DNA from: Reinekea thalattae
Lineage (GTDB): Bacteria > Pseudomonadota > Gammaproteobacteria > Pseudomonadales > Natronospirillaceae
Direction of reading: 5' to 3'
DNA: 64,000 bases
Assembly (NCBI RefSeq): GCF_008041945.1
Contig: NZ_VKAD01000001.1
Coordinates: forward strand, 2,108,001-2,172,000
A program made the position numbers and the translations under genes. A model generated the notes under the pieces. That model was not told where the DNA came from, ran no database searches, and worked only from the letters and a program-made list of their open reading frames with translations. Position 1 is the first letter of the stretch; each line of letters opens with the position of its first letter. Below are positions 3,041 to 29,461 of the stretch, piece after piece.

Positions 3041-4081
3041 ATGAAAGCGAACTTTAAAGCTGGCTTAGCTGCTTTATCGATTTTATCGACAGTATTTATT
3101 TTGAGCAGTTGTGATAATGCCGAAGAGGAAACTGCATCGGCATCAGACTCATTCAAACCAGCGGTTATTTATGACACAGCCGGTAAGTTTGATAAGTCGT
3201 TCAACGAAGCGGTTTTCCGTGGTGGCGTAGAACAGTTTAAATTAGACAAAGGCGTTGAGGTTGCAGAATTTGAACCGCAAAACGAAGAGCAGCGTGAGCA
3301 AGGTTTACGTACGCTAGCACAGCGTGGTCAAAGCCCAATCGTTGCTGTTGGTTTCAACATGCAGTCTGCGGTACAAAAAGTAGCCGAAGAATTCCCAGAA
3401 ACACAGTTTGCTATTATCGACTCAGTTGTCGACCTACCAAACGTTCAGTCAATGTTGTTTGCTGAGCACGAAGGTTCATTCCTTGTTGGTGCGTTAGCGG
3501 CGATGGCTTCTGAAACAAACAAAGTTGGTTTTGTCGGCGGTATGGACATTCCTCTAATCTCTAAATTTGCTTGTGGTTATGAGCAGGGTGCTAAGTATGT
3601 TTCTGCTGATGCAGAAGTCTTCCAAAACATGACTGGCTCTACGCCAGCTGCATTTGGTGACCCAGCACGTGGTTCAGAACTTGCTAAATCACAAATCGCT
3701 AAAGGCGCAGACGTTGTCTTTGCTGCCGCTGGTGGTACTGGCTTAGGTGTTTACCAAGCTGCGAAAGACGAAGGTGTTTATGCCATCGGTGTTGATTCAA
3801 ACCAAAACTATATTCAGCCAGGTTCTATGTTGACCTCTATGGTTAAAAAAGTTGGCTTCGCTAGCTATACCACTTGGGCTGAAGCGCTAGAAGGTGATTG
3901 GCAGCCAGGCATTAAAGTGTTTGACCTAGCCTCTGGTGGTGTTGATTACGCAATTGATGAGTACAACGAATCATTGATTACTGCAGAAATGAGCTCAACT
4001 GTTGAGTCTATTAAAGCAGACATCATTGCCGGTAACATCACGGTTCATGATTACACAGCAACGATGTCTTGCGACTACTAA
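3041..4081 (+). CDS. BMP-family substrate-binding lipoprotein
   Basis: 346 residues with a lipoprotein signal (about 1-23, lipobox LSSC, Cys24). The mature part is of the BmpA/PnrA/Med type: PAVIYDTAGKFDKSFNEA at the start, an acidic middle, and GVDSNQNY near residue 250. The family binds purine and other nucleosides and passes them to an inner-membrane ABC transporter. Here the ATPase and two permeases follow directly. The ribosome site AAAGGGG is good. Two hairpins after the stop, before the ATPase gene, suggest this component is made in excess over the membrane parts. The nucleoside specificity is inferred from the family. Confidence 0.85.
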   Translation: MKANFKAGLAALSILSTVFILSSCDNAEEETASASDSFKPAVIYDTAGKFDKSFNEAVFRGGVEQFKLDKGVEVAEFEPQNEEQREQGLRTLAQRGQSPIVAVGFNMQSAVQKVAEEFPETQFAIIDSVVDLPNVQSMLFAEHEGSFLVGALAAMASETNKVGFVGGMDIPLISKFACGYEQGAKYVSADAEVFQNMTGSTPAAFGDPARGSELAKSQIAKGADVVFAAAGGTGLGVYQAAKDEGVYAIGVDSNQNYIQPGSMLTSMVKKVGFASYTTWAEALEGDWQPGIKVFDLASGGVDYAIDEYNESLITAEMSSTVESIKADIIAGNITVHDYTATMSCDY

Positions 4082-4138
4082 GTTGCTTGGCTTAATTTGC
4101 TAAAACTCTAAACAGCACCGCACTGGTGCTGTTCTAAT

Positions 4139-4165
4139 AAAAAGCAGGTTAGCGCCTGCTTTTTC
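4139..4165 (+). terminator. Hairpin terminator between binding protein and ATPase genes
   Basis: AGCAGG/CCTGCT stem (4143-4160) followed by TTTT. A second stem AACAGCACC/GGTGCTGTT lies just before it (4111-4133). Read-through would set the lower level of the downstream ABC genes. Confidence 0.7.
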
Positions 4166-4235
4166 CTGTTGTAAACCATGGTTACTATTAGCTCCAAACT
4201 AATTCGACCAAAAAGACGAAGAATTCGGGTGAGTC

Positions 4236-5813
4236 ATGACTGCTCAAACACAGGTTGCTGCAAAACCAGCAATTGAGTTATGCGGTATTGATAAGCGTTT
4301 TGGCGCGGTTCATGCCAATAAGAACATCGATCTCAAAGTAGCGAAAGGCACTATTCACGGCATTGTCGGTGAAAACGGTGCGGGTAAATCAACGCTGATG
4401 AGTATCATCTATGGCTTTTATGAGGCCGATAGTGGAGAAATCCTTATCGACAATAAAGTCACAAAGATTGCAGATTCTAAAACTGCAATTGCCTCAGGTA
4501 TTGGCATGGTGCACCAGCACTTTATGTTAATTCAAAATTTCACTGCTTTAGAAAACGTCATTCTTGGCGCCGAGTCTGGCGTGATGCTTAACGTCAGTTT
4601 AGATAAAGCGCGTAAGGAACTCACACGCCTTGCATCCGAATATGGTTTGGATGTGCCATTAGATGTACCGGTAGAACAGTTGTCTGTCGGTATGCAACAA
4701 CGTATTGAAATTCTTAAAGCGCTTTATCGAGGCGCGAAAGTTTTGATCTTAGATGAGCCGACCGGTGTGCTAACGCCACAAGAGGCGGAGCATCTATTTA
4801 AAGTCCTTGAAGCACTGAAAAAGCAAGGCAGTACCGTCATTATCATTACCCATAAGCTACAAGAAATTATGGCGATCACTGATAACGTCAGCATTATGCG
4901 TCGCGGAGAAATGGTCGGTCATGTGAAGACCGCAGAAACCAACCGTGAACAGTTGGCTGAGATGATGGTGGGTCGCAAAGTATTATTGAATGTGAATAAA
5001 ACGGCAGCCAAGCCAACCGATACTTTACTGAAAGTAAATCACTTATCTTGGCAGGATGATGCTGGCGTGCAGCGTCTAGAAGATGTTGCTTTTAGTGTGC
5101 GTGCTGGTGAAATCGTTGGTATTGCTGGTGTCAGTGGTAATGGTCAGTCGGAGCTTTTAGAGCTGCTTTCTGGCATCAAAGATATTCAGCAGGGTTCGGT
5201 TGAAGTTGCTGGTACCCAGTTAGATCAGGATAGCCAGATGACGCCAGAACAATTACGTGCGATTGGCGTGGCACATATTCCTGAAGACCGTCATAAGATG
5301 GGCTTAGTTAATTCTTTTGCCGCTGATGAGGCTTTTATTCTCGGTTATCACCGAGCTGACCAATATAACGGCAAGCTGTTAATGGATCAGGCCGCTATTC
5401 GCAAAGACTGCGCGGAAAAAATGCAGAAGTGGGATGTTCGTCCGCAGGACCCAAAATTAAAAGCGGCGAACTTCTCTGGCGGTAATCAACAAAAATTAGT
5501 GATTGCCCGTGAGATGGAACAAAAACCAGATGTTTTATTGGTTGGACAGCCAACGCGAGGCGTTGATATTGGCGCAATCGAGTCAATACACAACCGAATT
5601 ATTGAGATGCGGGATGCCGGAAAAGCGGTGTTACTTGTGTCTGTAGAGTTAGAAGAAATTATGAGTTTGGCCGACAGAATTTTAGTGATGTTCGATGGCA
5701 AAATTGTCGGTGAAGTACCAGCAAGCAAAGCTAATGAACAAATATTAGGTTTAATGATGGCGAATATCGTTCCAGACGAAGTTAAGGCCTTGCAACAGGA
5801 GGCAGAAGCATGA
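4236..5813 (+). CDS. Nucleoside-type ABC importer, double ATPase
   Basis: 525 residues with two fused ATPase domains. The first has Walker A GENGAGKS (45-52), signature LSVGMQQR and Walker B VLILDEPT. The second has a degenerate Walker A (GVSGNGQS) and signature FSGGNQQK, followed by VGQPTRGVD. This is the usual asymmetry of sugar and nucleoside importers such as YufO/NupA and RbsA. It powers uptake through the two permeases that follow. Its stop overlaps the start of the first permease by four bases, so the two are translationally coupled. Confidence 0.88.
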   Translation: MTAQTQVAAKPAIELCGIDKRFGAVHANKNIDLKVAKGTIHGIVGENGAGKSTLMSIIYGFYEADSGEILIDNKVTKIADSKTAIASGIGMVHQHFMLIQNFTALENVILGAESGVMLNVSLDKARKELTRLASEYGLDVPLDVPVEQLSVGMQQRIEILKALYRGAKVLILDEPTGVLTPQEAEHLFKVLEALKKQGSTVIIITHKLQEIMAITDNVSIMRRGEMVGHVKTAETNREQLAEMMVGRKVLLNVNKTAAKPTDTLLKVNHLSWQDDAGVQRLEDVAFSVRAGEIVGIAGVSGNGQSELLELLSGIKDIQQGSVEVAGTQLDQDSQMTPEQLRAIGVAHIPEDRHKMGLVNSFAADEAFILGYHRADQYNGKLLMDQAAIRKDCAEKMQKWDVRPQDPKLKAANFSGGNQQKLVIAREMEQKPDVLLVGQPTRGVDIGAIESIHNRIIEMRDAGKAVLLVSVELEEIMSLADRILVMFDGKIVGEVPASKANEQILGLMMANIVPDEVKALQQEAEA

Positions 5814-6931
5814 GTCAGCAAGAAATCCCAAATTGGGTGTCCATCGTTATCGTACCGATTGTCAATATTATCTTGGCTGCTATCGTTTCTGGCTTTGTCT
5901 TTTTATACCTAGACATCAACCCTATCGATGCAGTGAGCACCATGGCGTATGGCGCATTTGGTAGCTCATATGGCTGGGGCTATACGCTTTATTACACCAC
6001 TAGTTTTATCTTTACCGGATTGGCCGTCGCGGTCGCGTTTCACGGCAGCATGTTTAACATCGGCGGTGAAGGTCAGGCCTATATTGGTGCGCTGGGTGTA
6101 GGTTTGGTGTGTTTGTTTTTAGGTGGCAAGGTGCCATTTTTATTGCTGCTACCAATGAGCATTATTGCTGGCGGCTTGTTTGGCGCTTTGTGGGCATTTA
6201 TCCCTGCGTGGTTGGCGGCTAACCGTGGTTCCCATGTTGTGATTACCACCATCATGTTCAACTTTATTGCGGCATCCTTGATGGCGTTTTTATTAGTTGA
6301 AGTGCTTAAGCCTGCTGGTTCAATGTCGGTTGAGACGGCGGTTTTTGATCAGGCAGCATGGATTCCTAAGGTGTTTGAAGTAGCAGGTAGCTTTGGAATT
6401 AAGATGCAGCGTTCGCCGCTTAATCTATCCATTATCTGGGCGCTTATATGTTCTGTATTTGTTTATATCTTTATTTGGAAAACCAAATGGGGTTATGAGA
6501 TTCGCGCCATGGGGCAAAACGCCTCTGCAGCTGAATACGCAGGTATTAGCCTGAATAAAACCATCATTATGACCATGCTGATTTCTGGTATGTTGGCCGG
6601 ATTTTTTGCACTCAATGTGGTTCAGGGTGAAGCGCACCAGATCAAATTAAGTTTGGTTAATGGCATGGGCTTTACCGGTATTGCTGTGGCACTGATGGGT
6701 CGTAATCACCCAGTGGGGATTTTGTTCGCAAGTCTGTTGTTTGGTTTTTTATACCAAGGTGGCGGCGAGCTTCAATTTGAATACGGTGTCGATCCAAGAA
6801 TCATTGTTGTGTTGCAAGGTCTGGTGATTTTGTTCTCAGGCGCACTGGAGCATATGGCGAAACATCCGGTAGAAAGGGCTTATTTGATGTTGACGGGTAA
6901 ATTTAACAAAACCGAACAAGAAGGAGCCTAA
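5810..6931 (+). CDS. ABC importer permease (YufP type)
   Basis: 373 residues with about eight to ten hydrophobic spans and the BPD_transp_2 signature regions FNIGGEGQAYIGA (about residue 84) and AEYAGIS with a glutamate-alanine loop near 240. It is the larger of the two inner-membrane subunits that form the nucleoside channel. It overlaps the ATPase gene by four bases and sits three bases before the next permease. Ribosome site AGGAGG lies inside the ATPase end. Confidence 0.87.
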   Translation: MSQQEIPNWVSIVIVPIVNIILAAIVSGFVFLYLDINPIDAVSTMAYGAFGSSYGWGYTLYYTTSFIFTGLAVAVAFHGSMFNIGGEGQAYIGALGVGLVCLFLGGKVPFLLLLPMSIIAGGLFGALWAFIPAWLAANRGSHVVITTIMFNFIAASLMAFLLVEVLKPAGSMSVETAVFDQAAWIPKVFEVAGSFGIKMQRSPLNLSIIWALICSVFVYIFIWKTKWGYEIRAMGQNASAAEYAGISLNKTIIMTMLISGMLAGFFALNVVQGEAHQIKLSLVNGMGFTGIAVALMGRNHPVGILFASLLFGFLYQGGGELQFEYGVDPRIIVVLQGLVILFSGALEHMAKHPVERAYLMLTGKFNKTEQEGA

Positions 6932-6934
6932 AAG

Positions 6935-7921
6935 ATGGAATATTTTCAAACCGTTATTCTAATTTTAGATGCGACTTTACGAGTTGCGACGCCGCTTATT
7001 TTTGCTGCGTTAGCAGGCTTGTTTTCTGAGCGTTCGGGTGTTGTTGATATTGGCCTTGAAGGCAAAATTTTAGCCAGTGCCTTTGCTGGAGCTGCCGCAG
7101 CTTACGTATTTAACTCTCCTTGGATGGGTTTAATTGTCGGCGTTTTAGTGTCTGTTTCATTAGCCATGCTGCATGGCTTTGCAACCGTGACACACCGAGG
7201 TGATCAAGTTGTCTCTGGCATGGCAATTAATATTTTAGCCATGGGCCTAACCGCCTCGTTGGGTAATTTTTGGTTCCATCAGGGTGGCAATACGCCAAAC
7301 CTAGTGAATGCGTTAGAGAATATCGATGCGCGTTTTACTACGATCGTATTTCCTTTTGCTGAGCAGCTGAAAGATGTGCCCATTATTGGCGGCATCTATT
7401 CTGAGTTGTTATCAGGCCATTTTTTATTGGTTTATTTAGCGTTAGCAGCGGTACCGCTGTCGTGGTTTGTACTATTTAAAACACGTTTTGGTTTGCGTTT
7501 GCGGGCGGTAGGTGAAAACCCAACCGCTGTTGATACCGCAGGTATTTCGGTTGTTGGTATGCGCTATATGGCGTTAGCAATCTGTGGTGCCTTAGCGGGT
7601 TTGGCTGGTGTTTACTTGTCGGTTGCCGTAACAGCACAGTTTTTACCGAACATGTCAGCTGGTAAAGGCTATATGGCTTTGGCGGCGTTGATCTTTGGTA
7701 AGTGGCGTCCTCGAGGAGCCTTGTTAGCCTGTTTGATGTTTGGCATATTGCAGGCCATTGCTGACCGCTCACAGGGTGCGATGATTGGTAGTGTAGAAAT
7801 TCCAGTGCAATTAATTGAAGCGCTGCCTTATATCCTAACCGTTGTGTTACTCGGTGGCTTTATCGGAACCGCTATCGCGCCGAAGGCCATTGGTAGACCA
7901 TACGTTAAAGAGCGTGAGTAA
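6935..7921 (+). CDS. ABC importer permease (YufQ type)
   Basis: 328 residues, strongly hydrophobic. It has the paralogous signature FSERSGVVDIGLEGK near residue 30 and the loop AVGENPTAVDTAGIS near 190 that contacts the ATPase. It pairs with the preceding permease. The operon ends with a strong hairpin after this gene. Confidence 0.87.
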   Translation: MEYFQTVILILDATLRVATPLIFAALAGLFSERSGVVDIGLEGKILASAFAGAAAAYVFNSPWMGLIVGVLVSVSLAMLHGFATVTHRGDQVVSGMAINILAMGLTASLGNFWFHQGGNTPNLVNALENIDARFTTIVFPFAEQLKDVPIIGGIYSELLSGHFLLVYLALAAVPLSWFVLFKTRFGLRLRAVGENPTAVDTAGISVVGMRYMALAICGALAGLAGVYLSVAVTAQFLPNMSAGKGYMALAALIFGKWRPRGALLACLMFGILQAIADRSQGAMIGSVEIPVQLIEALPYILTVVLLGGFIGTAIAPKAIGRPYVKERE

Positions 7922-7943
7922 GTTTTGATAACCGCTTAGATTT

Positions 7944-7973
7944 AAAGCCCGCTATATGCGGGCTTTCTTTTTT
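7944..7973 (+). terminator. Intrinsic terminator of the BMP-ABC operon
   Basis: AAAGCCCGC/GCGGGCTTT with a five-base loop (7944-7966), then CTTTTTT. The stem sequence is nearly repeated in the attenuator terminator 260 bp downstream. Confidence 0.9.
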
Positions 7974-7977
7974 GTAC

Positions 7978-8006
7978 TTGCAATAAAAAATGATCTAGCC
8001 TAAATT
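7978..8006 (+). promoter_or_regulatory. Possible promoter of the exporter leader
   Basis: TTGCAA (7978-7983), 17 bases, TAAATT (8001-8006). Each box has two or three mismatches to the sigma-70 consensus, so this is only a candidate. Confidence 0.35.
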
Positions 8007-8086
8007 GCTTACCACTGCTCGAATGGTTCGTGCAGAAACCCGAATGGCAACCTTATGATCAAGCAGATTTAACAAGGACATCCTCC

Positions 8087-8149
8087 ATGAGTTTCATCTT
8101 AAGCTACATCATCGTTAGCGCATTTTTTGCGCCTAAAGGTTATTGCTAA
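8087..8149 (+). CDS. Putative 20-residue leader peptide
   Basis: An ATG with AAGGA eight bases upstream opens a 20-codon ORF that starts MSFILSYIIV and ends APKGYC. The stop codon (8147-8149) touches the first arm of a hairpin, and a terminator follows about 55 bases later, before the ABC exporter genes. This is the layout of a translated attenuator. The N-terminal half is hydrophobic, so a tiny membrane peptide is the alternative. No known leader peptide is recognised. Confidence 0.5.
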   Translation: MSFILSYIIVSAFFAPKGYC

Positions 8150-8229
8150 CGGGCAGATTTTTGCAAACTGGCCCGTAGCAAAGCGGGTTATTTGATTGTA
8201 TTCAAGGCTCGCATTATGCGGGCTTTTTT
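8149..8229 (+). promoter_or_regulatory. Putative transcription attenuator of the ABC exporter operon
   Basis: Three segments can pair in two ways. ACGGGC (8149-8154) pairs with GCCCGT (8171-8176). A terminator hairpin AGGCTCGC/GCGGGCTT (about 8205-8225) ends in six T (8224-8229). GCCCG (8171-8175) is also fully complementary to CGGGC (8219-8223) in the terminator's right arm, extendable to about eight pairs with G-U pairs, which would be an antiterminator. A ribosome held at the end of the 20-codon ORF would cover the first segment and free the second. The pairing is seen directly; the function is inferred. Confidence 0.5.
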
Positions 8230-8278
8230 ATTTTCGAATAAAAATCCCGCAAACAATAAATTTAAGGGATTTTTAATT

Positions 8279-10105
8279 GTGAATACGCACGTTGAACACA
8301 AAAATCGTTTTTTACTGAACCTGATACAACAAAAAAAATGGTATTACTTGGGTTCGGTGTTAAGTGTTGGTTTAGCCAGTTATTTTTTGTATTTGGTACC
8401 TACCATTGGCCGTATCGCTATCGATCAAATTGTCAGCGACAGCGCAGCTGTTGATGGTGATTTAACAGCGCAACTTTTTGCACTCTTTACTTCTGTCCAC
8501 GAAAAGCCCGAGCAACTGCTGATGGCCGGGTTGGCCATTGTCTTGGTCACTGCCTTTGCTGGGCTATTCATGTACTTAAAAGATTATCTCGCTGCAACGG
8601 CGTGTGAAGATACCATTCAAACACTGCGCAATCGTCTGTTTGAGCATTTGCATAAATTAGATGAACGTTACCTCAGCAAAGCCGATAGCGGTGACCTAGT
8701 GCAACGCTGTACATCGGATATCGATACCTTGCGTGAATTTTTAACATTGCAGGTGATGAACATCGGCCGCACGGTCGTGTTGGCGCTGATCATGGTTCCG
8801 TTGATGTTTATGCAGCATGTTTGGATGTCGGTGTTGTCGTTATTTTTAGTGCCGGTAGTAATTTATTTTGCTTGTACGTTCTATGTTCGAATTCGAGGTT
8901 TGTTTCAGCAGGTCGATGACGCAGAAGGTGAGCTGACGACGATTGTGCAAGAAAACCTGACCGGCATTCGCGTTGTTCGAGCGTTCGCACGGCAACAGCA
9001 TGAGTGTGACAAGTTTGATCATTACAATCGAAAATACAGTGATTTGAATTACCGACTGCTGTGCATGCTCGCTAACTTTTGGTCGACGGCTGACATATTG
9101 TGTTTTTGTCAGAATGCTATTTTGCTGTTTGGCGGCGGTTGGCTGGTGGTGAATGATTATGTCTCGATCGGAACCTACTTTGCCTTTATCGGTTACATCA
9201 ACATGCTGATCTGGCCAATTCGTCAGTTGGGTGAGGAGTTGAGTGAAGCCGGTAAAGCAACGGTTGCAATCAATCGCATTCAGCAAATATTGGATGCGCC
9301 AGAAGAAGTTGAACAGCAATCGTTGGTTGATTTGCCAGATGATTTTACCGCCGATATTGAATTTGATTCGGTAAGCTTTTCATTTGATCAGCAAAAACCG
9401 GCATTAAACAATGTCAGCTTTAAGGTTGCGGCCGGCGAAACCATTGCCATTGTTGGCCCAACGGGCGCCGGTAAGTCAACTTTGATCCAACTGTTGATGC
9501 GTCTGCAAGATTACCAACAGGGTTCCATCACTGTTGGTGGTATCGAGCTGAATCGTATTGCGCGTCAACAGATTCGTCAGCGCATTAGCACTTTATTGCA
9601 AGAGCCGTTTTTATTCAGTCGCTCGTTGCGCGATAACATTAAGCTGGGGCATAAGTTGGCAACCGATGAGCAGATGGTTACCGCGGCCAGCGATGCTTCG
9701 GTGCACCACACAATTAAAGCATTTAAACAGGGTTATCAAACCCTTATTGGTGAGCGTGGCGTTAGCCTAAGCGGCGGTCAAAAGCAGCGCGTGACGTTAT
9801 CGAGAACGCTACTTAAAAAAGCAAAAATGCTGGTATTGGACGACACCTTAAGTGCCGTTGATTCTGATACGGAGCATAAAATTATTTCAGCCCTGCATAA
9901 AAAACGAGGTGAACAGACGCTGCTGATCATTACTCACCGCATCAGTGTTTGCCAACAGGCCGACCGTATCTTTGTGATGCAAGATGGTTGTTTGGTTGAT
10001 AGTGGCAGTCACCAAGCGTTGCTATCTCGGCCAGGGTTTTATCAACAGTTGTGGCAAATACAAGCCGATCAACAACAGGCTGCTGATCAGCCGAATTTGG
10101 TTTAA
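8279..10105 (+). CDS. ABC exporter half-transporter, degenerate-site subunit
   Basis: 608 residues: an exporter membrane domain with six spans (about 20-320) and an ATPase domain with Walker A GPTGAGKS, signature SLSGGQKQR and Walker B MLVLDD. The usual catalytic glutamate is aspartate here, as in MdlA and the degenerate halves of heterodimeric exporters. With the next gene it should form an inner-membrane exporter for drugs, lipids or peptides. I chose the GTG at 8279 because AAGGGA lies nine bases upstream. The longer frame from 8192 would run through the terminator hairpin. Two other members of such pairs, BmrC/BmrD, are under leader-peptide attenuation in Bacillus. Confidence 0.85.
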   Translation: MNTHVEHKNRFLLNLIQQKKWYYLGSVLSVGLASYFLYLVPTIGRIAIDQIVSDSAAVDGDLTAQLFALFTSVHEKPEQLLMAGLAIVLVTAFAGLFMYLKDYLAATACEDTIQTLRNRLFEHLHKLDERYLSKADSGDLVQRCTSDIDTLREFLTLQVMNIGRTVVLALIMVPLMFMQHVWMSVLSLFLVPVVIYFACTFYVRIRGLFQQVDDAEGELTTIVQENLTGIRVVRAFARQQHECDKFDHYNRKYSDLNYRLLCMLANFWSTADILCFCQNAILLFGGGWLVVNDYVSIGTYFAFIGYINMLIWPIRQLGEELSEAGKATVAINRIQQILDAPEEVEQQSLVDLPDDFTADIEFDSVSFSFDQQKPALNNVSFKVAAGETIAIVGPTGAGKSTLIQLLMRLQDYQQGSITVGGIELNRIARQQIRQRISTLLQEPFLFSRSLRDNIKLGHKLATDEQMVTAASDASVHHTIKAFKQGYQTLIGERGVSLSGGQKQRVTLSRTLLKKAKMLVLDDTLSAVDSDTEHKIISALHKKRGEQTLLIITHRISVCQQADRIFVMQDGCLVDSGSHQALLSRPGFYQQLWQIQADQQQAADQPNLV

Positions 10106-10114
10106 GGAGTGATG

Positions 10115-12043
10115 ATGAATACTCAAGATCAAACCGTACAAGCTGGCTCAGCGAACGACGCAGCCTCAGCTCAACAGAGCGCCGACAGCCAAATGGAAGA
10201 GATGCAAATCGACAACAGAGCGGCAGAAAACAGCACGCCAGCACAAAAGGGTGCTTGGAAACGATTGTTTTGGATGTGCTATCAGCCACATAAAAAACTA
10301 TTTCATAAGATCATATTTCTTGCACTCTGTTGCGCCATGATAGAAGCCAGCTTAACACTGGTAACTAAAGCGGTGGTTGATGACATGGTGGCTTTAGGGC
10401 CAGAGATTAATTTGCAAAAGTATGCGCTGCTGTACTTGGCGATGATTGCTGTATTTGTCAGCTGTATTCGTGCGTTTATCCGTATTACTGGCCGACTATC
10501 TTCTGAGTTGATGTACTCATTACGCAAACAAACCTTTGAGCACTTACAAAGTTTATCGTTTTCGTTTTTCGATAAGAATGCCGTCGGCTGGTTGTTGTCC
10601 CGTGTGACTTCAGACATCGCGCGTATTGCCAGAGTTATCGCTTGGGGCACGCTGGATTTATTTTGGGGAGTGCCCTTTATCATTGCCATCTTTACAGTGT
10701 TGTTGGTGTTGGATTTAAAAGTGGGCTTGACCGTTTTAGCGTTGTTCCCGTTATTGGTCGCAGTGGCGTGGCTTTTTAATACCAAAATTCTTAAAAGTTC
10801 ACGCAAGGTTAGGCGCACTAACAGCCGGCTCACCGCTATCTACAATGAAAGTATTGCCGGTATTCAAACCAGCAAGGTGTTGAACCGAGAGCAGGAGAAT
10901 TTGCAGGCATTTAAGGTTGATAGCGCGATGATGCACAAACAGTCGAAGCACAACCTGCTGTTAACCTCTGCGTTTTATCCGTTTATTAATCTGTTTATCT
11001 CTGTCGCCATCGGTGTTGGTCTGTGGCTTGGCGGCATCGAGGTATTGGTTGGTACGTTAACGCTGGGCTCGTTAGTGGCCTTTATGACTTATGCCAGAAT
11101 GTTGATGGATCCAATGTTAGAGGTTTCTGGAAAATTAGCAGAATTACAACGAACCACTGCCTGTGTCGAGCGAGTGGTTGGGCTGCTGGATGTTGAGCCA
11201 GAGATCAGCGATTCGCACTACGTGCGCCAAAAGATGGTGAATGCGATGGCGGCCGGTAGTAATGTCATTGATGGTGGTGATGAGACTATAAGCAGCATTG
11301 AATTCAATGATGTGAGTTTTGCTTATAAACAAAACGAGCCGGTGTTGTCGTCGTTTAATTTTAAAACAGAGGCAGGCAAAACCATCGCATTGGTTGGTGC
11401 AACCGGCAGTGGTAAATCGACTATCGTGAATTTATTGGCTCGCTTTTATGAACCGACGTCTGGCGAGCTTAAAATAAATGGTCTCGATTATCGTCAGCGC
11501 AGTTTGGCCTGGTTGCAATCCAATTTCGGCATTGTGCTGCAAACGCCGTTCTTATTTACTGGCAGTGTTGCGTCTAATATTCGCTACGGTAAGTTGGATG
11601 CCAGCGATGAAGAGGTGATCGCTGCAGCGAAGGCGGTCAACGCGCATGAGTTGATCATGAAGATGGAACATGGCTATCAAACGCAGGTTCAGGAAGGTGG
11701 CAACAACTTATCGACTGGGCAAAAGCAATTAATCTCCTTTGCTCGTGCCATTATTCATAATCCACAGATATTAATTATGGATGAGGCAACATCGTCGGTT
11801 GACACACAAACTGAGCATCTGTTGCAGCAAAGCTTAAAGGCGGTTTTAAAAGGCCGAACCAGCTTTGTCATTGCGCATCGACTATCGACCATTCGCGCGG
11901 CCGATGAAATTTTGGTAATCGATAAGGGCGAGTTGATTGAGCAAGGTGACCACCAGGCTTTGATGAATAAGCAGGGTGTTTATTATGGGCTCTATCAAAA
12001 ACAATTTCAGACTGAGCAGCAGGCATCCTTGTTGACTCAATAA
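10115..12043 (+). CDS. ABC exporter half-transporter, consensus-site subunit
   Basis: 642 residues: a glutamine- and alanine-rich N-terminal tail of about 40 residues, six membrane spans, then an ATPase domain with Walker A GATGSGKS and Walker B ILIMDEATSSVD carrying the full catalytic glutamate. The signature reads LSTGQ, one change from LSGGQ and similar to MdlB. It is the partner of the preceding gene, only nine bases away. Of the starts GTG 10109, ATG 10112 and ATG 10115, the last is best spaced from AAGGAG (10104-10109). The sulfatase follows 20 bases later with its own good ribosome site. Confidence 0.87.
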   Translation: MNTQDQTVQAGSANDAASAQQSADSQMEEMQIDNRAAENSTPAQKGAWKRLFWMCYQPHKKLFHKIIFLALCCAMIEASLTLVTKAVVDDMVALGPEINLQKYALLYLAMIAVFVSCIRAFIRITGRLSSELMYSLRKQTFEHLQSLSFSFFDKNAVGWLLSRVTSDIARIARVIAWGTLDLFWGVPFIIAIFTVLLVLDLKVGLTVLALFPLLVAVAWLFNTKILKSSRKVRRTNSRLTAIYNESIAGIQTSKVLNREQENLQAFKVDSAMMHKQSKHNLLLTSAFYPFINLFISVAIGVGLWLGGIEVLVGTLTLGSLVAFMTYARMLMDPMLEVSGKLAELQRTTACVERVVGLLDVEPEISDSHYVRQKMVNAMAAGSNVIDGGDETISSIEFNDVSFAYKQNEPVLSSFNFKTEAGKTIALVGATGSGKSTIVNLLARFYEPTSGELKINGLDYRQRSLAWLQSNFGIVLQTPFLFTGSVASNIRYGKLDASDEEVIAAAKAVNAHELIMKMEHGYQTQVQEGGNNLSTGQKQLISFARAIIHNPQILIMDEATSSVDTQTEHLLQQSLKAVLKGRTSFVIAHRLSTIRAADEILVIDKGELIEQGDHQALMNKQGVYYGLYQKQFQTEQQASLLTQ

Positions 12044-12063: not shown

Positions 12064-13365
12064 ATGAGTGTTCATCCTAGTGGGCTAATCTTGGTTGTGT
12101 TTTCGCTGCTAGCCAGTGTTGTTAGCGCCGACGATCAACCCAATATTTTGCTTATTATTGCTGATGACATGGGTGTCGATGCCTCTGCTTGTTATTCGTT
12201 GGGCGATCAACAGGCGAATATGCCCACCATTGAGGCTATGTGTCAGCGTGGCAAGGTGTTTGAAAATGCCTATGCAGCGCCCTTGTGCTCACCGACACGG
12301 GCGACGATTATGTCGGGCCAATATGGTTTTCGCACCGGTGTTGGTTCGGCCATTACCAAGCTTAATGCACAGGGGTTATCGACTGATACCCCCAGTCTTT
12401 TCGATCTCCTCGCTGACACCGATTACAGTGCCAATGTAATCGGCAAGTGGCATTTGGCTGGAATGGATGAAGGCTTCGACCACCCAGCTGCTTTAGGTGT
12501 TGAAGAATTTTGGGGCTTGTTCAGCGGTTCATTGAAAGACTATCAACATTGGACGGCGGTGTCCGCTGGTAAAGAGGAATCGGTAAATGAATACGCAACC
12601 ACAGCCATTACCGATCAGGCTTTAAGCTGGATTGGCGAACAGCAAAATCCTTGGTTTTTGTGGCTAGCCTATACTGCGCCGCATACACCATTCCATTTGC
12701 CTCCGAGCGATCTACACAGCGCGACTGACTTAACTGGTGGCACTCAGGCGGATATCAATAAAAACCCTACCGCCTATTACAACGCCATGCTGCAAGCATT
12801 AGATACAGAAATCGGCCGACTACTGGCTTCAATGTCGGCTGATGAACGTGAAAATACCATCGTTATGTTTATCGGTGATAACGGTACGCCTGGCCGAGTA
12901 GCGCGTTCCGTTTATGGCGCTAAACGAGCCAAGGGTTCTATCTATGAAGGTGGCGTGCATGTGCCATTTATTGTTTCTGGCCCCAATATCGAGCCCGGTC
13001 GCATGACCGATTTAGTACAAACATCGGATCTGTTTAGTACCATTGCCAGCTTAGCTGGAGTTCGAGTGAGCCAGCCAGATAGCTTTGATTTTAGTCCGGC
13101 ACTTTATGGCGATAAGAGCGCACGAGATTATATTTATGTTGAACATTTTGGAGTCGCGAGTTCGCAGCAGCGAGCCAATGTTTATGGTTGGGCGATTCGT
13201 CAGGGTGATTATAAGCTGTTGCAAAAACAGGATGCTGAGTCTGAGCTCTACAACTTAGCGACAGATCCTTATGAACATGAGGATTTATTCGCCGATGGTA
13301 AGTCTAATCAAGAATTGGTGATTGAAGCTAATATCATGGCTATTTATCAGGCGATAAAAAAGTGA
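12064..13365 (+). CDS. Secreted arylsulfatase-like sulfatase
   Basis: 433 residues with a signal peptide (about 1-22). The sulfatase core has the metal pair ADD at 33-35, the CSPTRATIMSG motif with Cys75 that becomes formylglycine, and the C-terminal metal motif GDNGTPG. It hydrolyses sulfate esters in the periplasm or outside the cell; the substrate is unknown. No formylglycine-generating enzyme or anaerobic maturase lies in the window, so one must be elsewhere for activity. AGGAGG is placed correctly. Being third in an exporter operon is unusual for a sulfatase and hints at a shared, unknown substrate. The ahpF terminator overlaps its stop codon. Confidence 0.82.
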   Translation: MSVHPSGLILVVFSLLASVVSADDQPNILLIIADDMGVDASACYSLGDQQANMPTIEAMCQRGKVFENAYAAPLCSPTRATIMSGQYGFRTGVGSAITKLNAQGLSTDTPSLFDLLADTDYSANVIGKWHLAGMDEGFDHPAALGVEEFWGLFSGSLKDYQHWTAVSAGKEESVNEYATTAITDQALSWIGEQQNPWFLWLAYTAPHTPFHLPPSDLHSATDLTGGTQADINKNPTAYYNAMLQALDTEIGRLLASMSADERENTIVMFIGDNGTPGRVARSVYGAKRAKGSIYEGGVHVPFIVSGPNIEPGRMTDLVQTSDLFSTIASLAGVRVSQPDSFDFSPALYGDKSARDYIYVEHFGVASSQQRANVYGWAIRQGDYKLLQKQDAESELYNLATDPYEHEDLFADGKSNQELVIEANIMAIYQAIKK

Positions 13366-29223: not shown

Positions 29224-29280
29224 AGCTAACACTCAATCGGATTCGAGTGGCTAGTGTAATACATTGATGAGTGGCTTTAA

Positions 29281-29455
29281 GCCCCCAAATTACCGCTGCT
29301 ACGGAAGACCTTGAACCAAACAGTTCAAGGCGGTGACTCCTGCAATGAATTAGGCTTTCTGCCGGAGCAGACATGCACACAACATCGCGAGAAATCCCCT
29401 AAATTCGTAAAATAGGCTCGAGGACTTTTCGCAGCTGGCGAATAACCCAGGGGTG
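29281..29455 (-). ncRNA. ssrS: 6S RNA
   Basis: Between zapA and fau, on their strand, a ~175-base region matches E. coli 6S RNA in order. It starts with ACCCCTGG, then TTCGCCAGC and AGTCCTCGAGCC, then a central bubble flank AGAAAGCCTAA. A hairpin CCTTGAAC/GTTCAAGG (29309-29330) follows, and the end is AGCGGTAATTTGGGGG, which closes the terminal stem. 6S RNA mimics an open promoter and holds sigma-70 polymerase in stationary phase. The ends are estimated to within about five bases. Confidence 0.92.
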
Positions 29456-29461
29456 AGATGA

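Follow-up and report, generated by a model that had tools for sequence, protein, structure and literature searches.

A conserved leader with a short open reading frame and alternative hairpins before an ABC exporter of Reinekea thalattae, and its possible role in attenuation

What controls the two-part ABC exporter of Reinekea thalattae, a gammaproteobacterium of the family Natronospirillaceae? We analyzed a stretch of 64,000 nucleotides from this organism, which we call the window. (All features are on the forward strand unless stated otherwise.) Directly 5' of the exporter genes is a leader, and an initial annotation had proposed that translation of a short open reading frame (ORF) in this leader controls an exporter-sulfatase operon by attenuation. 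We found that the leader is a real, conserved element that most likely attenuates transcription by sensing the translation of the short ORF. Attenuation by a leader ORF fits what is conserved in all seven distinct leaders, but we propose another antiterminator and another polarity than the ones that had been suggested.

The exporter and its leader in related genomes

The exporter is encoded by two adjacent genes. Subunit A (exA, 8279-10105, 608 amino acids) matches Pfam's ABC_membrane and ABC_tran, and is preceded by the ribosome site AAGGGA, which together with the GTG start codon occupies 8264-8281. (The relatives' alignments to the exporter begin at residue 1, 2, or 6, according to tblastn.) Subunit B (exB, 10109-12043, 644 amino acids) was also identified with Pfam. 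In subunit A, the Walker B motif ends in LDD, which is degenerate, and the signature is LSGGQ; in subunit B, Walker B ends in MDE and the signature, as read by eye, is a degenerate LSTGQ. From these motifs, which we read in the window only, the pair is a heterodimer with one degenerate nucleotide site. This is the pattern of known multidrug heterodimeric exporters with one working site. The relatives of both subunits with solved structures include P-glycoproteins and TM288, and subunit B is also related to YheH of Bacillus (4.6e-90 and 1.6e-89 for two solved chains), which we take to be the same protein as BmrD.

A sulfatase gene follows (12064-13365; Pfam Sulfatase, with a CSPTR motif). It is probably co-transcribed with the exporter in the window, yet it lies outside the conserved unit: exA and exB lie side by side in each of the seven relative loci that we fetched, but tblastn (E 1e-10) found no sulfatase in these stretches of 9.2-9.5 kb. 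So, of the proposed exporter-sulfatase operon, the exporter pair is the conserved part and the sulfatase is local. Upstream of the leader is a four-gene operon for a BMP-type ABC importer (3041-7921; the scan covered three of the genes), followed by a terminator of its own (7944-7966). In three of the relative loci (L018-L020), the window's importer permease is found about 2.7 kb before the exporter. In another (L023, from genome G018), the reverse complement of 7539-9242 encodes a further ABC exporter protein after the conserved pair, with 27% identity to subunit A.

The exporter is present at high similarity in 7 of the 22 genomes from the family, including R. thalattae itself, and the exporters from the six relatives are 58-66% identical to the window's at the protein level. 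These six genomes gave seven loci (L018-L024), which we compared to the window. Two of the loci, L018 and L019, are on different contigs of the same genome (C1 and C2 of G004) and are 100% identical over 9,401 bases. One of these contigs is just 24.6 kb, and the duplicate could reflect either a recent duplication or an assembly artefact. We dropped L019 from the alignments as identical to L018, which left seven distinct leaders, including the window's. As L020 barely differs from L018, there are effectively about six independent leaders, from few relatives in one family. Pairing between arms E and F (see below) and the folding of full-length leaders were studied in all seven; the shuffle tests with a masked ribosome and the comparison of duplexes cover six, with L020 omitted. 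Beyond the family, we found no further orthologs of the exporter at E 1e-170 among 390 genomes from the order and 369 from the class. A scan of contigs identified three distant relatives of the exporter (27-34% identity). In a search of plasmids, no DNA matched, and the only protein match had 37.5% identity.

The leader was kept in 7 of 7 genomes with the exporter, although the genes immediately upstream differ, and its mean column identity is 55%. The order of its elements is also shared by all seven: a 5' hairpin, an arm Z, a ribosome site, the ORF, arms A to E, and then arm F before the start of the exporter. (Arm Z was scored in six leaders only: the window's, L018, L021, L022, L023, and L024.)

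Is the element found anywhere else? A covariance model, R1, gave scores of at least 80 bits (80-142) only at eight exporter leaders across the 22 genomes of the family and the 390 of the order. (Seven of these leaders were used to build the model and the eighth is the identical copy.) In the 369 genomes of the class, at E 1e-6, the only match was the window's own. Weak matches were frequent: 163 of the 390 genomes had one at E 0.01, and at E 1 all 22 genomes of the family did, with 39 in R. thalattae. We considered these as further leaders and rejected them, as the 10 readable loci out of 11 proved to be ordinary terminators. Among the matches listed, the best one outside the exporter leaders had 41.2 bits. 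Since R1 is strong only at exporter leaders, the element was seen only before the exporter in the genomes that we searched. We also searched the 22 genomes for a DNA pattern of arms A, B, and C, which by design misses the window (because of its TAA) and genome G003. The pattern was found at seven places in six genomes, namely six exporter leaders (two of them identical) and a CRISPR array, while the reversed pattern was found at three places. The CRISPR array (repeat GGTTCATCCCCGCGTCTGCGGGGAAC) is at about 1251-1900 of L080, in genome G005.

At Rfam's gathering scores, the only match in the whole window was a 6S RNA gene (29278-29456, minus strand, 97.8 bits), and no family matched over the leader. 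A permissive search of six exporter loci (L007, L008, and L010-L013) gave two matches, both far below the gathering score, which we took to be due to chance. One, to Trp_leader (27.8 bits; gathering score 41), lies a short way 5' of the leader in the window. The other, to Leu_leader (24.2 bits; gathering score 50), overlaps the end of the leader in L013 (the same place as L024) but is on the other strand.

The leader ORF, the pairing arms, and the terminator

We then examined the ORF. In the window it has 20 codons (8087-8149, MSFILSYIIVSAFFAPKGYC*) and a good ribosome-binding site, AAGGA at 8074-8078, both as initially annotated. A site of this kind is present in all seven distinct leaders, with a predicted energy of -3.3 to -5.6 kcal/mol against the anti-Shine-Dalgarno sequence, and the ORF is presumably translated. 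In every leader the ORF starts with ATG and ends at the same position, after 18, 19, 20, or 22 codons (54, 57, 60, or 66 bases before the stop, all of them multiples of three). The region of the stop reads TGACGG or TAACGG in 7 of 7, and the stop codon opens arm A; in the window, the final base of the TAA is also the first base of arm A. That the first arm begins at the stop, as had been noticed in the window, is therefore a feature of all seven. This is our main argument that the structure is unlikely to be due to chance: all seven leaders have kept, in frame, an ORF of 18-22 codons with arm A beginning at its stop codon. (An open frame is weak evidence by itself, as L018, L020, and L023 each have a second one.)

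The peptide is another matter. An automatic alignment of the seven peptides, which is poor, had no invariant column, and none of the leaders has a run of codons for one amino acid. An ATC codon (isoleucine) is kept among changing neighbors: it is the fourth codon in the window and the fifth in each of the six distinct relatives. That the peptides diverge while the frame and the stop stay fits a leader that senses translation and not one particular peptide.

Five arms follow from the stop codon onward. Arm A (ACGGGC, 8149-8154) and arm B (GCCCGT, 8171-8176) can form the hairpin that had been described at the outset; B can also pair with C or E. Arm C (GCGGGTT, 8183-8189), our proposed antiterminator arm, can pair with D or B, and its GCGGG is invariant in all seven rows of the alignment. 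Arm D (AAGGCTCGC, 8204-8212) is the 5' arm of the terminator by its pairing in the alignment, and arm E (GCGGGCTTTTTT, 8218-8229), which includes the T-tract, is the 3' arm by its pairing with D and by the terminator scan. A T-tailed terminator (8204-8229) is thus present before the first exporter gene, as expected from the initial annotation. It starts 54 bases past the end of the stop codon. An intrinsic terminator D:E lies between the ORF and the exporter in all seven distinct leaders. (The scan of 7500-8600 found four terminator-like sites, as compared to 1.8 in shuffled sequences with a standard deviation of 1.5, which is weak evidence on its own.) Because C shares D with the terminator, C:D and D:E are mutually exclusive. 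The hairpins of the leader terminator (8204-8226) and of the importer's terminator are nearly identical, and the genome has a third near-copy at another place (G000:C1:830498-830528; 94% over 31 bases).

These arms are conserved as pairs. In the seven-row alignment, 91.7% of cells are paired for A:B, 98.2% for C:D, 100% for B:C, and 98.6% for D:E. (L020 has lost A:B pairs, 6/9.) The whole structures are 93.1-96.1% paired, versus 30-57% if the partners are slid by 1-3 columns. The ORF, the arms, their conservation, and their mutual exclusivity can be read from the aligned DNA, and both the ORF and the alternative stems are conserved in 7 of 7 distinct leaders, which had been suggested as a check. 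Because arms A to E hardly vary, what backs them is conservation and not covariation. The changes on both sides of a pair are all in hairpin H, which is within the ORF (GCGCA/TGCGC, 8118-8132; 88.1% of cells paired) and, by eye, ends 10-14 bases before the stop across the leaders. Three of its six pairs changed on both sides, in four cells, of which three are from L024. A caveat is that the helix in L024 (CTTTAC/GTAAAG, by eye) sits one column off in the alignment. Hairpin H is a possible pause hairpin for RNA polymerase.

Folding had also been proposed as a check. None of 100 dinucleotide shuffles folds as well as the 302 bases at 7978-8279 (z = -3.3), and the 113 bases at 8117-8229 fold better than 200 of 200 shuffles (z = -2.9). 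The five relatives that were folded beat their shuffles as well, with z from -3.5 to -4.9.

What lies on either side of the ORF and the arms? Past the terminator, arm F (AAAAATCCCGC, 8240-8250) can pair with E in the read-through RNA. An E:F duplex is predicted in all seven leaders, although the letters of the arms differ. Of 500 shuffles, 23, 94, 92, 3, 30, 3, and 2 were at least as strong as the real duplex (in the window, L018, and L020-L024, respectively), so E:F is not significant in L018 and L020. In the window's minimum free energy structure, AAAATCCC (8241-8249) can instead pair with GGGATTTTT (8266-8274), at the exporter's ribosome site, and this pairing could add translational control in the window. 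The gap from the terminator to the start of the exporter is 37-53 bases in six of the seven distinct leaders (97 bases in L021), which leaves little room for a separate promoter. Judging from the length of the gap, a promoter between the terminator and the exporter is unlikely; a scan of 7500-8600 gave no promoter at the cut-off, as compared to 1.7 in shuffled sequences.

At the 5' end, we infer a transcription start from a putative promoter, TTGCAA-17-TAAATT (7978-8006), which has 8 of the 12 consensus bases and lies 6 bases before the hairpin element (8013). By eye, TTGCnn-17/18-TAnnnT is found 6-12 bases before this element in the seven distinct leaders, but the best automatic pick disagreed in four of them: it fell on different sites in L018, L020, and L021, and on a different -10 in L024. 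The 5' hairpin itself (8015-8035), at the expected start of the transcript, folds in 7 of 7 with differing letters, at -4.6 to -8.0 kcal/mol for segments that were picked by hand. Next is arm Z (AACCCG, 8037-8042), which is complementary to A, C, and E; in six leaders a CCCG occurs 3-11 bases after the hairpin element. For Z:A, 181, 0, 38, 41, 13, and 155 of 500 shuffles were at least as strong as the real duplex in the window, L018, L021, L022, L023, and L024, and for Z:C the numbers were 48, 72, 37, 13, 11, and 155. (The stretch of L024 that was used in these tests is only 16 bases.) Neither arm C, arm F, AACCCG, the 5' hairpin, nor the hairpin within the ORF was part of the initial annotation.

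How the leader might work

Overall, we lean towards the view that the leader is a ribosome-mediated transcription attenuator for the heterodimeric exporter, and that it is on when the ribosome stalls early. Arms of the CCCG type (Z, B, D, and F) alternate with arms of the CGGG type (A, C, and E), and this gives two registers of pairing. In the read-through register, A:B, C:D, and E:F would form, and in the termination register, B:C and D:E. A ribosome that finishes the ORF would cover A at the stop, so that B pairs with C, D is left free, and D:E terminates transcription. If the ribosome were held early in the ORF, then A:B would form, followed by C:D in time, so that there would be no terminator and the exporter would be made. 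The early hold-up would most likely come from a translation inhibitor, and the signal is probably a ribosome-targeting compound. Hairpin H would probably pause RNA polymerase and let the ribosome catch up.

We modeled the ribosome as a simple mask of 29-31 bases and used equilibrium folding. If Z is left out and there is no ribosome, the predicted pairing of C:D is 0.99, 1.00, 0.96, 1.00, 1.00, and 0.34 (window, L018, and L021-L024). With the mask at the stop, it is 0.01, 0.87, 0.00, 0.03, 0.00, and 0.08. Before E is made, and again without Z, the pairing of D (early minus stop) changed with the predicted sign in 6 of 6 leaders, and 2, 19, 0, 6, 0, and 7 of 100 shuffles reached the same change. 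With Z kept, the sign was as predicted in only four of the six, and 1, 4, 3, 66, 99, and 29 of 100 shuffles reached the change. In the presence of Z and the absence of a ribosome, C:D is 0.90, 0.96, 1.00, 0.54, 0.21, 0.00, and 0.04 (window, L018, and L020-L024). L020 hardly switches, with C:D at 0.87-1.00 for every position of the ribosome. Once E is included, equilibrium pairing of D:E without a ribosome is 0.94, 0.99, 0.98, 0.17, 0.98, 0.67, and 1.00 (in the same order). So D:E wins at equilibrium in six of seven leaders once E exists, and read-through would hang on the timing of folding during transcription, with C:D forming ahead of D:E and staying in place.

Which arm is the antiterminator? 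The initial annotation had proposed that B pairs with E, and GCCCG (8171-8175) does pair with CGGGC (8219-8223). We consider this choice less likely than C:D (8183-8189 with 8204-8212). We prefer C:D because arm C is invariant, because C:D is paired in nearly all cells of the alignment, and because C:D can start to form before E is made. Also, in the model, a mask at the stop abolishes A:B and increases B:C, leaving D available to the terminator. (The rise in B:C is weak in L018 and L020.) If C:D is the antiterminator, then a ribosome that stalls near codons 16-20 or at the stop would cause termination, which is the reverse of the initial logic. The polarity is probably, but not certainly, opposite to the one proposed then. 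We are less sure of it because the B:E duplex, at -12.0 to -14.2 kcal/mol in six leaders, is stronger than C:D in four of them (window, L021, L022, and L024), and because D:E dominates at equilibrium.

We weighed several other explanations. The same attenuator could work with the reverse polarity: a stall at the end of the ORF would free B to pair with E and block the terminator, so that the exporter is on, and A:B would be an anti-antiterminator. Besides the strength of B:E, this would account for the lower pairing of D:E in the full-length leader when the ribosome is at the stop (0.43 in the window, 0.58 in L022, and 0.04 in L023). But it would leave the invariant arm C without a role, and since E directly follows D and is the last to be made, we would expect D:E to form before B:E. 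Furthermore, masking A makes B pair with C in the model, and the end of the peptide is not conserved. We view the reverse polarity as rather unlikely, but worth keeping in mind. Alternatively, the attenuator might read one amino acid (such as isoleucine, from the ATC codon) or one nascent peptide (such as a drug-dependent arrest peptide). The ATC is kept while its neighbors change, and for PA5471.1 (discussed below) the available part of one report describes sensing at codons 3-4 (PMC13041342). However, none of the seven leaders has a run for a single amino acid, the exporter has no evident link to the supply of isoleucine, and no column of the (poorly aligned) peptides is invariant. These points make sensing of one residue or one peptide improbable.

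Two more explanations would do without attenuation by translation. If the leader were a separate gene for a small RNA or a small protein, then the strong terminator and the ORF's good ribosome site would belong to that gene, and the exporter would have its own promoter. This seems very improbable given that the leader accompanies the exporter in every one of the seven genomes even though the genes immediately upstream change, that the gaps in six of seven leaders are so short, and that the peptide is not conserved. A riboswitch that binds a metabolite and does not need translation would also have several conserved arms and a terminator. But the frame, the start, and the stop of the ORF are conserved, the alignment has no compact conserved core of the kind that binds a ligand, and no Rfam family reached its gathering score in the window's leader; of all these explanations, we give the riboswitch the least credence.

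A more elaborate version of attenuation is a three-state device of seven arms (Z, A, B, C, D, E, and F), which is doubtful. With no ribosome, Z would pair with A or C and the terminator would form, so the exporter would be off. A ribosome that stalls inside the ORF would allow A:B, C:D, and E:F (on), and one that finishes would cover A and let the terminator form (off). If so, the exporter would answer to the stalling of ribosomes as such and not to the loss of translation. The E:F duplex would fix the leader in read-through and, in the window, would release the exporter's ribosome site.

Comparison with known systems

If attenuation that is on when the ribosome stalls early is correct, then the leader is a ribosome-mediated attenuator directly before an ABC exporter in Gammaproteobacteria, and in R. 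thalattae the ribosome would act as a general sensor of stress that controls efflux. The chain of arms is unusually regular, with interchangeable partners, and the leader ORF seems to be kept for its position and not for its peptide. We searched the literature, including for Reinekea and Saccharospirillum, and found no account of this leader among the papers listed. One source, in the part available, discusses attenuation by an upstream ORF under azithromycin in Pseudomonas aeruginosa, but not for this exporter (PMC8297930).

The statement in the initial annotation that no such system was known for this exporter holds as far as the literature was searched, but there is a like case in P. aeruginosa, PA5471.1-armZ, whose leader controls the RND pump MexXY through ArmZ (PMC12057347, PMC13041342; both seen as partial text). 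As described there, the terminator forms when PA5471.1 is translated completely (PMC13041342), and expression follows if the ribosome stalls, if a stop comes early, or if the leader is deleted (PMC12057347, PMC13041342). One of these accounts calls the attenuation proposed and not confirmed (PMC12057347, in the portion available). Going by these partial descriptions (PMC12057347, PMC13041342), the likeness is that both systems are gammaproteobacterial, have a short leader ORF that is made constitutively, are linked to drug efflux, and have the polarity that we propose here. The target differs: for PA5471.1 it is an anti-repressor of an RND pump, whereas for the leader in R. thalattae it would be the ABC exporter itself.

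The initial annotation had pointed to BmrCD of Bacillus subtilis. There, according to the available part of the report, a leader ORF (BmrB) and a terminator precede a heterodimeric ABC exporter, and ribosome-targeting antibiotics induce it (PMC4191407). The exporter downstream is again a heterodimer with one degenerate site, which we checked in the window. In the portion of the report that we could draw on, BmrB has 53 codons and the terminator is inside its ORF, whereas here the terminator follows the ORF; and blocked translation of BmrB lowers read-through, which is the opposite of our two-state model (PMC4191407). Ribosome-targeting antibiotics are also sensed by the toiL upstream ORF of topAI in Escherichia coli, where, in the text available, several classes act through stalls at different places (PMC12121999). 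As described in that source, toiL affects translation and Rho-dependent termination, and it has another target (PMC12121999).

Finally, attenuators of the trp and his type combine a leader ORF, a pause hairpin, and alternative hairpins. The leader described here differs from them in that it has no run of regulating codons, its stop is inside the first arm, and it has more arms.
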